Below, piece after piece: positions 38,685 through 56,771 of a DNA stretch of 64,000 bases. Under the pieces are notes generated by a model that was not told the DNA's origin, made no database searches, and saw only the letters and a program-made list of their open reading frames with translations. The translations under genes and the position numbers were made by a program. Positions within the stretch are counted from its first letter, which is position 1; the number at the start of each line of letters is the position of its first letter. The stretch is taken from contig CP136061.1 in the NCBI GenBank assembly GCA_032622095.1, positions 186,812,369-186,876,368 on the forward strand. Direction: 5' to 3'. Source of the stretch: Siphonodentalium dalli (Eukaryota > Mollusca > Scaphopoda > Gadilida > Siphonodentaliidae).

Positions 38685-38818
38685 CCCCGCATGAAAGAGA
38701 TAGAAAGGCGGATGTCTGAACGGGGCGACAGAATCAAAGTGCTCAAAGACAAGATGAATCGAGTAGAAGATGAAGTATTTGAAGACTTCTGCCAACAAAT
38801 TGGTGTTGCTAATATAAG
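38685..38818 (+). CDS. SMC1A: SMC1A exon 12 (C-terminal coiled coil)
   Basis: A 134-nt exon with a TTCTTTGCAG acceptor and a GTATAA donor. It encodes PRMKEIERRMSERGD and then the highly conserved DKMNRVEDEVFEDFC and IGVANIR, which are diagnostic for SMC1A. It leaves in phase 2 with a split Arg codon (AG/A). The following intron holds the second DIRS-like element, which runs right up to the next exon. Confidence 0.97.
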
Positions 38819-39420
38819 GTATAAATGAATAACTGTAATAACTAAGAACATCCCTAACCAGATGTGTTAGTGGTTAGCTTGAGAATGTGCTGTACTCAAA
38901 TCAAGGCAGTTAAATTTAAATTTACAGTAATTTAATTCAGGTTATGTATTATATGATGACCATATACTCTTTGAAGGTTTGCTCACTTGGAAAAAATTCT
39001 TATTATTTGAACATTCCCTCCAAATGATTGGACAGGAATCCTATGTCTTCTGAACTTTTATTATCAAAACACCCCTCTAAATTAATAATAGACCATTCCA
39101 ATGTATACTTTTATAACTGTGTGCGAGACTTCATTAAGAAAATGGTTAATTTGGTGCTCACCCTCACAGAATGCTTATTTTCACTTAGTTAGAAATTTGA
39201 CTGTCCATATCCAAATCATGGAGCCTATAATAACTGAGAAAATCATTGTATTCCCGTCAAAGATACGTTACACACTGAACTACATGTTATATACATGTTC
39301 TCTTATTCACAAAGAGAGGATCTATGAGATCCGTTTAAAATTTATTATTTTGGTACGAAATAGCTTAAGTACCTTTTTGAATCATTATTATGACGTAGCA
39401 GGTCACAGGTCCACTAGCTG

Positions 39421-39449
39421 TATATAAGCGAGAGGACACACAGGTAAGG
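39421..39449 (+). promoter_or_regulatory. TATA box and 5' splice-site-like motif in left ITR of element B
   Basis: TATATAAG at 39421-39428 is followed by CAG/GTAAGG at 39441-39449, a consensus donor. TGACGTAGCAGGTCACAGG lies just upstream. The right ITR carries the same set inverted (43637-43665), pointing left. DIRS ITRs are known to hold promoters; here activity is inferred only. Confidence 0.4.
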
Positions 39450-40003
39450 TCTCTTTTCATCTTTGTGCGACAAGATTGAGGGAAGTAAACGCTATGAGGA
39501 AATGAACCACACATTATTGTCGGGTTCATTTTTTAGTTTAACCTAATCCGTTCCAAATTTTTAACTTTTGTTGTGACTTCGTTTCAATTTGAGAAACGAC
39601 ACAATACTTGTTAAATTAATATCAGAGTGACAATTTCATTCAATTTCACTTGAATTTATTTGTCTTACGTAAAATAAAATTAAAAATATCTTTGCTCTGT
39701 TGAGAATTGTGGGAAATTTCCCAACTTCCGGTAACGACGCACATGGTTTACAATTCCGAATTGTCTTTTCCGGTTCGCGTGTCAAACTCTCTTCTGGAAC
39801 TATGTTTACACAGTCCACTTGCTATGTTATATCTGTTCATTTGGTTTTAGAATGTAAGTATTATTTCGAACCTTCGATCAGTGAGACAACATTGGATTTG
39901 TAACTTTGTTTACGTTGAAATCGTCACATGACAACATTGGATTTGTTTACGTTGAAATTGTCACTCACAATTATGTTTCATGTTGACAAATGTAGCGAAT
40001 GCG

Positions 40004-40159
40004 TAGGGAGCAAATTAACTGGCATCGCATCGCAATTTGCTACCCACATTTGTATGGATTATAGCTATGTAATTTGTCATGACTTTGCTATGACTTTAGC
40101 ACAATGATATCAAATTAACTTATTTGCTAATCCAAATTTCAACAGTTATTTGCTCCCTG
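40004..40159. mobile_element. hAT-type MITE (CAGGGAGCAAATTAA family), copy 1
   Basis: Ends TAGGGAGCAAATTAACTGG and TTATTTGCTCCCTG are inverted, with GCATCGCAATTTGC inside. It lies within DIRS-like element B. No clear flanking duplication. Confidence 0.6.
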
Positions 40160-40688
40160 CAAAATTAGGGATCAGGTTTGGGTCCATTTTCGTTTATCTA
40201 TGAATTAACTCACTTTGTGTGGTTTTGCTTGGTTCATAGTTCACTATGAATTAGTTTACTATACACACTGAGGTTGTTTGCCAACAAAATAACTTGGTGT
40301 CCAGTGATCAGATCGCTCTGACACAAGTCATAACGTGACTCATCAGTCACCTAATTTCATGGTAAATTTTGAGGTCCCTTTCCTGATCCTTATCAATGGT
40401 CAAAAACAGGCTATTTTTCTTCCTCGTGTGACCTCGGCTTCAGTAACCCCATTGTCAAGCAGGCTCAGGCTAATCCAATTCCTCGTTCCATGCAGACCTT
40501 GAGGTGGCCCAGCCGCATACTCCACCAATGTCACTGTAGGCAAAAGGTGCCATACTGTTCCGAGGGTAGTTTCTAGTGTTCACGGATCCAACCATGCTTG
40601 ACCGCTCCTGCTGGATCCTACCTCAGATTTTCGTCCTCCCACCTCCCTTTCACTAGCAGGTGCGATGAACCAAGATCTGTCGGCCCCC

Positions 40689-40857
40689 CAGGGAGCAAAT
40701 TAACTGGTATCGCATCGCAATTTGCCATCCAAATTTGGATAATAGCCATGCAATTTGGTATGAATTTTATGTGATTTGAGATTGAGAACAATGCTCTCTA
40801 ATCATGTCAATGTGAGGCTATTTGATAATCTAAATTTCCAAATTAATTTGCTCCCTG
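40689..40857. mobile_element. hAT-type MITE (CAGGGAGCAAATTAA family), copy 2
   Basis: 169 bp with ends CAGGGAGCAAATTAACTGG and AATTAATTTGCTCCCTG, and the same GCATCGCAATTTGCCAT interior as copy 1. It is inserted in the GC-rich interior of DIRS-like element B. Confidence 0.7.
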
Positions 40858-41743
40858 GAGTCCACCCTCAGGTGGAATTGCTGATAAGACCACTTCCCGG
40901 GACTCTGCATGGCATTCAGATGCTTGATATTTGGCGGAGGGCGGATTCTAGCAAGTGTATCGGCTGGGGCTGTAGCGATTCATCGTAAATTTCATTGGGG
41001 TGATACGTGTATAGCGATACACGAATTAATTAATATCTGCAGATCTATGGGTTAGTGTAAACCAACGTTTCGGTTTATTCTATGTAAACTATAATTGACT
41101 GATCTGCCCAATAACCATGTAGTTCAATGCAGATAGTGTTCTTTTAGAAACACTAGTGTAGTGTATCGTTATCTGTATCGTTTCATTGGTCGGTTATCTG
41201 GATTTGTATCGTGTCATGACCAAGTGTGTCCCGCTGCCCTGATGGCTGCACAGCGTGATTCTGCTTCTCGTCCGATTTTAAGCTGGCTCCGGGTTAGGGG
41301 GAAACGGTCTGCACATTAATCATACCTCGATGCCATCTTTCCAGGCTTTACCCAGCCCTGTTTATTCAGTTTTTTACTATACAGAAAAATGATGATCTGG
41401 TATGATGATCTGACATTTAGTTACAATTCTAATTAACAGGGGTGTTTGCCATCTGACGAGAATTACGATTCTCACTTTGGATTTCGGAAAACGCTTGCTG
41501 CTACATGTATTTCTTGTGTCTGTGTGGAAAAATAAATAGAGAAAATTGCAGGGCATCGAGGGGAATCAGACGCAGTTTCTCTCCTCCGGTAGGGGGAACC
41601 GAGCGTTGGGCCATCAGACAGCGCGCCGTCTAATGCCGGGTAATCTCGGGTGCTGTACATAACAGTGAACATAGCGCAGTCATCGGCCGGGGCAGAGACT
41701 TTTAACAGACACTCAATTTGTTGTATAAACCATGGAGTTTTAC

Positions 41744-42037
41744 CAGGGCTCAAACTTATTACCTTTCACTTGTCCCTGATTGGCATTGTACTTTGTTTAT
41801 GGGAAAACGATCGATTCTTCTGAATGTAAATTCTACCAGCCTTCGAAAATTCCCAATGATTGTTCACCTGTAGTGCCAGGCTTAGATCTATTCTCTAACG
41901 ATATCATGGCTTTTATAGTTTGGGTTAGCTTATCGGGTTAAGATATAGACAATTGAACTCATGCAATCTTCTGAGGTGGCTGGTAACAAATAAACCTGTT
42001 CCATGGGAACAGGCACATTTCAGAATTTTGAGCCCTG
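41744..42037. mobile_element. CAGGGCTCAAA-TIR element, copy 1
   Basis: An 11-bp inverted end pair CAGGGCTCAAA / TTTGAGCCCTG bounds 294 bp. hAT-like ends, but no target duplication was seen. Confidence 0.4.
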
Positions 42038-42952
42038 CGTCATGTCAACGACATACCGTGATGCCCTGAATGATTGAGTCCTTTGCCGCCAGGGGGTTGT
42101 GGGTGGCTTTTCGGGATTTGGTGGGCGGTGTGGCTCGTTGCCGGTCGCCGGGGGCTCTCATTGAGAGCTTTCCGCTGGGTGGCTGTGGGCCATGCTTCTG
42201 GCTGGGTCCTGGGGTGCTGCCCGTGGTTCTGCTGTGGTTGGGGGGGTCGGTTGTTTAGGGCATTGCTGTACTCAGTGCTCCTTTTTGACACGCTGTCTTG
42301 AATAACTCAAACAGACGGGCAATCCGTCTAACGGCGCACATGAGGCAATCACCGTTGGCGACAGATGAGTCTCTGCCCACGGGGAGGAACTAGGGTCCGG
42401 GTCCTCGCTGTATGAGCGGCAGACAACCGTCAGACCATACACACATATGTCTGGTCGTCGTAACATGACTCCTCTCGACCAAATGTCGAACGAGACTATG
42501 CCTTCTCCTTAGTGGCTACGGTGGGCTGGAAACACGAACAGCTCATGGATCCGGGGCTTTTGTCTGTTAAGAACAATCAGTGAATAACAAGAAGACACAT
42601 TCTTCTTGTTATCAACATTCTGGTTGTTTTTAGTCCTTCATCATCCACAGCCTGTTCATCCTTTCCGACCGTTTGAACTTTGAAGTTGTTCCATCTCGAT
42701 GGGCTTCCTCCTTCCAAACATTTTCTAATATATTACATTCAGGCCTCCAAGTGTCCCTTTCAATCAAGGTAACTGAATACACTCGATTGGATCGACAGGC
42801 TGTGGAGGTAGTTTACAACTCGGGACTCTCCGAACTTTTTTCTTCTCGATTGTTTCGATACCAGAAAACATTTTAGGAATTTCAAAATCCTATCACGCTC
42901 ATGATGAACTTCGTTTACCAGGGGTTTTTCCAACCAGTTTCACGGCTCATAG

Positions 42953-43257
42953 CAGGGCTCAAAATGCATTTAATTTTGCGAGAATCAAATGCCGAATCAA
43001 GTTAGTCATAAAGCACTGAAAATTAAAAAGTTTTGCAAGAATCGTTACAAGAATCGATTCGGTGATTCTCGTTGAATCTTAAGGCCTGCATAGTAAATGC
43101 TGGTCATGTCATGGTCCAATGGAAATGGCTTATATCCGGTATATTTCTTACTCGAAGTAAAGTTTTTGCACTTTTGAAAACAATAACATGGGTTTTCCTG
43201 GGTGGCAATTGGACGCTCACTACACTGTGCGCCTCATAATAATTATTTTGAGCCTTG
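42953..43257. mobile_element. CAGGGCTCAAA-TIR element, copy 2
   Basis: CAGGGCTCAAAAT on the left and ATTTTGAGCCTTG on the right bound 305 bp. Only the ends are shared with the copy at 41744, so the interiors differ or have diverged. Confidence 0.4.
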
Positions 43258-43460
43258 ACCGGTTGTTCACAAAATTGGGTTTGCACCTTTACTGACAGGA
43301 TGTCTCACAATCATGGTTATGCGGCTATTCCAATCTGGGTTTTCTTCGCCAGAAATGAGGTTTGGTATGTTTCTAATCGTATTTACATTAAAAAGAATTG
43401 CTCTTAACCAAAATAAAATAGTATCTCATTAATCACAGCCTCCTCCTATGAGTTGATTCT

Positions 43461-43554
43461 AACATGTAGTTCAGTGTGTAATGTATCTTTGGCGGGAATA
43501 TAACATTTTCAATAGAAAATACATATTCCCTAATAAAATACTTACACACTGAAC
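43461..43554 (+). repeat. Internal complementary region of DIRS-like element B
   Basis: The first half complements the left outer end (39249-39290) with few changes; the second half complements the right outer end (43863 back to about 43809) almost perfectly. The switch is at 43497-43501. It lies about 70 bp inside the right ITR, as in elements A and C. Confidence 0.82.
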
Positions 43555-43869
43555 TCACATGTCCCTCCCAAATTGGGATTTCCCCTCCCCGCTGCTCGGT
43601 CACACCCCTCGAATCTTGTAAGAGGATGAAAAGAGACCTTACCTGTGTGTCCTCTCGCTTATATACAGCTAGTGGGCACGTGACCTGTGACCTGCTACGT
43701 CATAATAATGATTCAAAAAGGTACTTAAGGTATTTCGTACCAAAATAATAAATTTTAAACGGATCTCATAGATCCTCTCTTTGTGAATAAGAATGAATAT
43801 AACATGTAGTTCAGTGTGTAAGTATCTTATTAGGGAATATGTATTTTCTATTGAAAATGTTATTTTCAG

Positions 43870-43991
43870 ACAATATGAGGAGAGGGAACTGAGAGCCCAG
43901 CAAGAAAGGGCAAAGAAAAAACTGGAATTTGAAAACCAGAAATTCAGATTACAGAACCAGATTGAATTTGAGCGATCCAAAGACACATGGG
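43870..43991 (+). CDS. SMC1A: SMC1A exon 13 (C-terminal coiled coil)
   Basis: A 122-nt exon encoding RQYEERELRAQQERAKKK then LEFENQKFRLQNQIEFE, matching SMC1A. The acceptor is TTATTTTCAG; only the last six intron bases (TTTCAG) lie outside a DIRS-like element that ends at 43863. The donor is GTGACT after TGG G, so the exon leaves in phase 1, the only phase-1 intron here, and G/CA makes an Ala codon with exon 14. Read-through would add three codons and a TAA, but homology resumes cleanly in exon 14. Confidence 0.94.
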
Positions 43992-53462: not shown

Positions 53463-53626
53463 CAGGGAGCAATTTACTTTCGATATTTGATTAGCAACTG
53501 ATCTCACATTGACATGATTAGATAGCATTTTTATAACATCATACATGTATAAAAAATTCCTCGCTATTACCGGTATCCACATTTCAGTAGCAAATCGCGA
53601 TGCGAGTCCAGTTAATTTGCTCCCTG
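53463..53626. mobile_element. hAT-type MITE (CAGGGAGCAAATTAA family), copy 3, with 8-bp TSD
   Basis: 164 bp with ends CAGGGAGCAATTTAC and AATTTGCTCCCTG. A perfect 8-bp target duplication GTGTATCA lies at 53455-53462 and 53627-53634. The 8-bp duplication supports hAT for the whole family. It is nested in DIRS-like element C. Confidence 0.85.
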
Positions 53627-54006
53627 GTGTATCATAAGCATTCTGATATCTTATGGCATACACAATGGCTGCATGTGACATCAGTTCATAATGTGAACTG
53701 TCGAGAGAGCGAAGAAGATAACAAAGGGAATAGGATGAAGCAAAGTTATACTTGCTCGGTTGTCTCGCTAGCATGAATTATATGGCACTACCTGGGATGT
53801 TTATTCCAAAAACAAGGGGGGGGGGGGGGGCGGTACACATTTGAGCAATGTCGTAATCTGAATTGGGAGCTCTTTCACATAACATAATCATATCTGATTC
53901 ATGACTAAATCACATTTACATGAATCCTGTTTCGGAAGAGTACATTCCCATCGAATTTGGATATTAATTAACTTTATTGCTCGTGCCTCCTCCTGGGCTT
54001 GCATTC

Positions 54007-56685: not shown

Positions 56686-56771
56686 CAAATGTCCAGAAAT
56701 GGGAGGAAAGTGTCAAGCATGATGAAAAGGAACTGGAAAAAGTCAAGAATGATGAAGCCCGCCACATGAAG
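56686..56771 (+). CDS. SMC1A: SMC1A exon 14 (C-terminal coiled coil)
   Basis: An 86-nt exon after an ATTATAG acceptor; the donor is GTGGGT. With the base from exon 13 it encodes ANVQKWEESVKHDEKELEK and ends NDEARHMK, matching the family segment with the conserved Trp-Glu pair and RHMK. It follows the largest intron in the window (12.7 kb). A degenerate fold-back element begins about 40 bp after the donor. Confidence 0.95.

Follow-up and report, generated by a model that had tools for sequence, protein, structure and literature searches.

The last bases of introns are usually purged of transposons. In mammals, intronic transposable elements near splice acceptors are strongly under-represented, more so for most elements in sense orientation (PMC3088655). 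Introners, many of which bear the marks of DNA transposons (target-site duplications and terminal inverted repeats), create new introns inside exons (PMC9860276); DIRS elements go unmentioned in that work. DIRS1-like elements carry inverted terminal repeats (ITRs) and internal complementary regions (ICRs), have a 3-bp circular junction, and show no target-site duplication (PMC3266345), and Dictyostelium DIRS-1 is reported to integrate into copies of itself with no evident sequence preference (PMC5633606). Here we describe a DIRS-type element, element B, that ends six bases before a coding exon of SMC1A, an essential cohesin gene, in the scaphopod Siphonodentalium dalli, within a stretch of 64,000 nucleotides (contig CP136061.1, positions 186,812,369 to 186,876,368 of the forward strand; hereafter, the window, whose own numbering we use for positions without a contig prefix). 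The SMC1A case is one instance of a family-level pattern, defined by a tract-like target motif and sense insertion. The locus is laid out as follows.

38686–38818, + strand: upstream SMC1A exon (RMKEIERRMSERG...GVANI-R), then donor GTATAA (tblastn, splice-phase check)
38819–39248, + strand: host intron left of element B, with the likely ancestral branch-point region TAATAAC/ACTGAG near 39230–39237 (sequence, scan for the branch-point consensus yUnAy; putative function)
39249–43863, + strand (sense to SMC1A): element B, a non-autonomous DIRS-type element (ITR/ICR layout; ends fixed by genome copies)
39301–39461, + strand: left ITR, core (99% and 95% complementary blocks)
43460–43555, − strand: ICR (complementary to both outer ends)
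43625–43792, − strand: right ITR, core (pairs with 39301–39461)
43864–43869, + strand: TTTCAG, the intron end kept by the host; a further T is common to it and the element end (right flanks of ~170 copies, filled/empty pair)
43870–43991, + strand: SMC1A exon, 122 bp, approximately the 19th of the gene (tblastn, PDB alignments, frame check)

Element B is 4.6 kb long and non-coding. It has ITRs, an ICR matching both outer edges, and no target-site duplication, as DIRS1-like elements do, and the same ITR/ICR layout recurs in its sister copies. The two ITR cores differ by one mismatch and seven gap columns over 168, and the ICR, located just internal to the right ITR, pairs with 39249–39289 (39/41) and with 43802–43863. 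Both ends of the element are matched by the ICR: the left end at 39249 begins TATTCCC..., and the right end at 43863 reads ...GAAAATGTTAT. On its reverse strand the ICR reads the circle junction GTTATATTCCC (GTTA-T-ATTCCC), in which one T common to both ICR halves is certain from the sequence and from the filled/empty pair described below; a three-base overlap was not seen. The ends and the ICR differ at three positions in ~104, which suggests that this copy is not brand new. We found no reading frame longer than 111 aa in element B, where the longest frame runs into the flanks, and 18 sister stretches held no frame of at least 180 aa that we recognized as the element's own (the frames were not searched against families). 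The DIRS1-like coding set (GAG, reverse transcriptase [RT]/RNase H, methylase, and tyrosine recombinase) was not found in element B, which we therefore name a non-autonomous DIRS-type element and not a full DIRS1-like retrotransposon. There is no second copy of element B in the window, so what had been labeled "element A" is not a close relative.

We searched the genome with the last 84 bases of element B, obtaining 912 first-look candidates, with 40 places scored at 97%–100% identity. A 49-base right-end core had 203 exact matches in the genome, roughly half of which were the internal copy. In all copies read, the sequence turns copy-specific directly after GTTAT, aside from a strong preference for TTYY, and on the left side copy-specific sequence comes before TATTCCCG. 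The right end at 43863, which the earlier note had placed using the ICR, is thus confirmed both by the ICR match and by genome copies that diverge right after ...GTTAT, and only TTTCAG lies between it and the exon, as the note had read. A filled copy (C1:154158216–154163120; ACATG-T-[ATTCCC...GTTA]-T-TTTCG) has an empty homologous place in another stretch (L013; ACATG-T-TTTCG), so integration shares one T and makes no target-site duplication. The empty SMC1A site was probably ...GAGAAAATCATTG-T-TTTCAG. Retention of TTTCAG, as proposed in the earlier note, stands, but its exact pre-insertion join was probably one T too short and is better given as ...AAATCATTG-T-TTTCAG; the intron retained TTTCAG, or TTTTCAG if the shared T is assigned to the host. 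We found neither an empty SMC1A allele nor a second copy of the site in the assembly, the best matches having three mismatches. At three other window positions (2154, 19030, and 19173) lie empty copies of other repeats, e.g., TTCTCAGCCCAAAATACAG; elsewhere in the genome, homologous places in these repeats are filled by this element, so they could serve as additional filled/empty pairs. A very short copy (L045; C3:153184213–153184628), with ~380 bp between its ends, resembles a miniature of the family.

Right ends matching CTATTGAAAATGTTATTTY exactly were listed genome-wide. There were 188 of these (85 + 69 + 34), with 172 distinct flanks and one ICR match left out. The first host base was T in about 94%, with a similar preference at the second base, in a list made without requiring TTY, and flank positions 3 and 4 were mostly pyrimidine (83% at position 4). 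On the left flank, G at −1 and T at −2 were enriched, in a list most of which excluded A at −1 by design. As read from these flanks, the target motif of the family is about NTG-T-TTYY and resembles polypyrimidine-tract sequence. The inferred SMC1A site, TTG-T-TTTC, ranks among the best 141 of the 118,756 positions scored in the window (0.12%), according to a weight matrix of the family target that includes the SMC1A copy itself as one among many. The motif was ~5× denser in the last 15 bases of sampled introns than elsewhere, a factor derived from 13 acceptors of one gene. An insertion motif that resembles a pyrimidine tract explains the position of the element beside the acceptor. Literature searches for transposons targeting polypyrimidine tracts found nothing relevant, and these data suggest a defined target preference for a DIRS-type recombinase, none having been described in the literature searched.

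At least four right ends besides that in SMC1A abut coding exons in sense orientation, in TOE1, IFT172, a MAM-domain gene, and a DUF4551 gene. The SMC1A site is therefore not a one-off; it was left out of the count because it prompted the search. The systematic search covered right flanks with a nearby AG, about a third of which were inspected, making four cases a lower bound. In TOE1, TTTCAG is followed by AHGWCKDSKRCPKSHDI..., with further TOE1 exons lying in order on either side, all on one strand. In IFT172, TTTCGTTGGCAG is followed by an exon that ends at a GTAAGT donor. The MAM-domain exon comes after TTTTCATCTTTCAG, and the DUF4551 exon, after TTTTTCAG, is an open frame of >150 residues (E 2.5e-5, just short of the curated cut-off). 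A further two open frames (L061 and L063), after TTTCCCCGCAG and TTTCGCAG, had no family matches and are probable additional cases. The distances in the five exon cases, SMC1A included, cluster at 5–13 nt, on the right side and the sense strand. Among 171 copies, the expected number of exon cases was 0.08–0.14 assuming uniform sense insertion and 0.37–0.62 when weighted by the motif (P(≥4) = 0.0006–0.004), compared with four seen. CAG in flank positions 3–12 was over-represented as well (29 vs. 18.6 in column shuffles; 50 of 5000 shuffles).

Nine other flanks with CAG or TAG (L015, L018, L035, L039, L048, L058, L059, L062, and L066) had no recognizable exon when inspected. At greater distances, one right end (L065; C8:43402010–43402224) lies ~82 nt upstream of a DNA polymerase epsilon (POLE) exon, and a 566-residue open frame, probably a host exon, starts ~430 nt past the right end of another copy (L047, 5606–7303).

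Several points weigh against the account that we favor below. The expectations above are rough, with an assumed exon number of 150,000–250,000, and many copies with a nearby CAG do not adjoin exons. The motif factor varies widely between the 13 acceptors. The identity of TOE1 rests on a weak PDB match and on ordered exons. Finally, tyrosine-recombinase frames are abundant in the genome, but none was connected to this family. At least 150 tyrosine-recombinase matches exceeded the family cut-off (e.g., C8:20662546, C3:96213598, and C6:2598197), many in frames of ~600–660 residues; they apparently represent several families.

We then considered the host gene. The exon at 43870–43991 encodes QYEERELRAQQERAKKKLEFENQKFRLQNQIEFERSKDTW and matches human SMC1A at about residues 790–826, the tblastn query being a human sequence partly confirmed by PDB alignments. 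It joins in frame with the exon at 38686–38818 upstream and, downstream, with the exon that starts at 56686; 430 nt of host intron are kept to the left of element B and TTTCAG to the right, with continuous exon phase. Within the window, tblastn found 13 SMC1A exons in order. A whole-genome search found one near-complete SMC1A exon set (C1:186776467 to C1:186904911, residues 2 to 1207 in order), which starts ~36 kb before the window. The number 13 given to the exon by the earlier note holds for exons counted in the window, allowing for two short ones that were not seen, but in the gene the exon is approximately the 19th. All SMC1A exons found are intact, and skipping the 122-bp exon shifts the frame and results in early stops.

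To score the composite acceptor, we built a position weight matrix (PWM) using the other 12 acceptors of SMC1A within the window, each of which was scored with itself left out. The composite acceptor scored 6.46 compared with 5.10 for the inferred empty site, and the other 12 acceptors scored 3.16–13.76. Judged by its sequence alone, the composite acceptor is unremarkable. Three candidate signals lie within the element.

43667–43668, + strand: strong-scoring cryptic AG, whose use would give an immediate stop (PWM 9.37, translation)
43826–43830, + strand: best branch-point candidate, CTTAT, with A43829, element-derived and 40 nt from the acceptor AG (yUnAy scan; predicted function)
43832–43833, + strand: alternative AG, whose use would add 36 nt in frame (EYVFSIENVIFR) (PWM 3.82, in-frame translation)

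Within the final 70 nt of the intron, no sequence other than CTTAT matches yUnAy in full, and the likely branch region of the host (TAATAAC, ACTGAG) is now 4.6 kb away. The earlier note had proposed that the likely branch point and the upstream polypyrimidine context come from the transposon. The branch-point region has indeed been replaced by element sequence; the pyrimidines nearest the AG (T/TTTC) belong to the host. The likeliest predicted outcome is that the host AG is used as normal.

Two copies of another repeat are nested in element B.

40005–40159, strand not assigned: palindromic repeat resembling a miniature inverted-repeat transposable element (MITE) (72% match to 40690–40857, 69% to 53463–53625)
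40690–40857, strand not assigned: second nested MITE-like copy (sequence match to 40005–40159)

This short palindromic repeat starts with GGGAGCAAATTAACTGG and ends with TTTGCTCCC, and has one copy outside the element (53463–53627). Together, the three copies look like a nested MITE family.

Our favored account, which we consider probable, is that a DIRS-type element with a tract-like target was integrated by a recombinase supplied in trans, that its family recurrently lands in sense before exons, and that the composite SMC1A acceptor is used normally. A tyrosine recombinase supplied in trans would integrate a circular form of element B into an NTG-T-TTYY target, sharing one T and leaving no target-site duplication. 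The asymmetry of the motif would fix the orientation, so that copies of the family would repeatedly come to lie in sense, the right end just a few bases short of an exon. SMC1A would keep T/TTTCAG, i.e., the last pyrimidines and the AG, whereas the branch point (A43829 being the best candidate) and the part of the tract farther upstream would come from element B, yielding an acceptor predicted to function normally. A stronger version, which we regard as rather doubtful, is that splice-neutral insertion itself evolved, with the 3′ splice-site tract as the target of the recombinase and the right end (CTTAT...TATTTTCTATTGAAAATGTTAT) as a ready-made branch point and tract. If true, this would let the family enter essential genes at the most sensitive intron position without harm.

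The placement of element B might instead be a coincidence, in which insertion is blind to splice sites and one copy chanced to end six bases from an exon. A family as large as the match counts imply (203 exact 49-mer matches and 912 first-look candidates) should produce isolated odd cases, and the target motif is common, but four or more other copies adjoin coding exons in this same orientation when ~0.1 are expected, which leaves coincidence very improbable. A more credible alternative, though one to which we give less than even weight, is that the exon excess stems mainly from a preference for transcribed or open chromatin or for gene-rich regions, and that the TTYY motif then refines the position. 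Motif weighting alone predicts ~0.4–0.6 cases, fewer than the four or more seen, and the copies near the POLE exon and the 566-aa frame fit such a regional preference. On the other hand, chromatin alone would not give a cluster at 5–13 nt on the right side and sense strand, in a systematic search confined to right flanks with a nearby AG. Both motif and chromatin may contribute to the excess.

The remaining alternatives concern the consequences for SMC1A. The insertion might harm splicing, through a skipped exon or a cryptic element acceptor, making the assembled haplotype a hypomorphic or null allele. The element AG at 43668 outscores the true acceptor (9.37 vs. 6.46) and would introduce an immediate stop, exon skipping would shift the frame, and transposable elements near mammalian acceptors are strongly depleted (PMC3088655). 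We nevertheless find harm unlikely, as the score of the true acceptor exceeds that of the inferred empty site, every SMC1A exon found is intact, and the mismatches between the ends and the ICR suggest a copy that is not brand new. Less likely again is an added isoform, made by using the AG at 43832–43833 and carrying 12 extra residues (EYVFSIENVIFR). That reading is in frame without a stop, and its score of 3.82 exceeds that of the weakest real SMC1A acceptor (3.16), but it is weaker than the downstream AG and lies only 4 nt past the best branch-point candidate, so its use would require a different branch point.

The family has points in common with several known systems. It shares with DIRS1-like elements the ITRs, the ICR matching both outer ends, the circle-junction sequence, and integration without target-site duplication (PMC3266345; PMC5633606), but no coding frame for RT, methylase, or recombinase was seen in element B or in the other copies read, and the junction overlap is one base (T) and not clearly three. 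Unlike Dictyostelium DIRS-1, the family has a pyrimidine-tract-like target (PMC5633606). Similar to introners, it is mobile, is found in many genes, is predicted to be compatible with splicing, and borrows part of a splice site from the host. Whereas introners make a new intron in an exon, element B entered an existing one, with 430 nt of host intron on its left and TTTCAG on its right, and replaced only the sequence upstream of the 3′ end. By its recurrent entry at the very end of introns, in one orientation and in conserved genes, the family offers a naturally replicated test of which branch points and tracts suffice for splicing, and the pattern suggests a route by which a mobile element is tolerated inside essential genes. 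Like the transposable elements found near mammalian acceptors, members of the family inserted within tens of bases of the splice acceptor; in contrast to the mammalian pattern, they are over-represented at 5–13 nt, and in sense orientation in the cases found.

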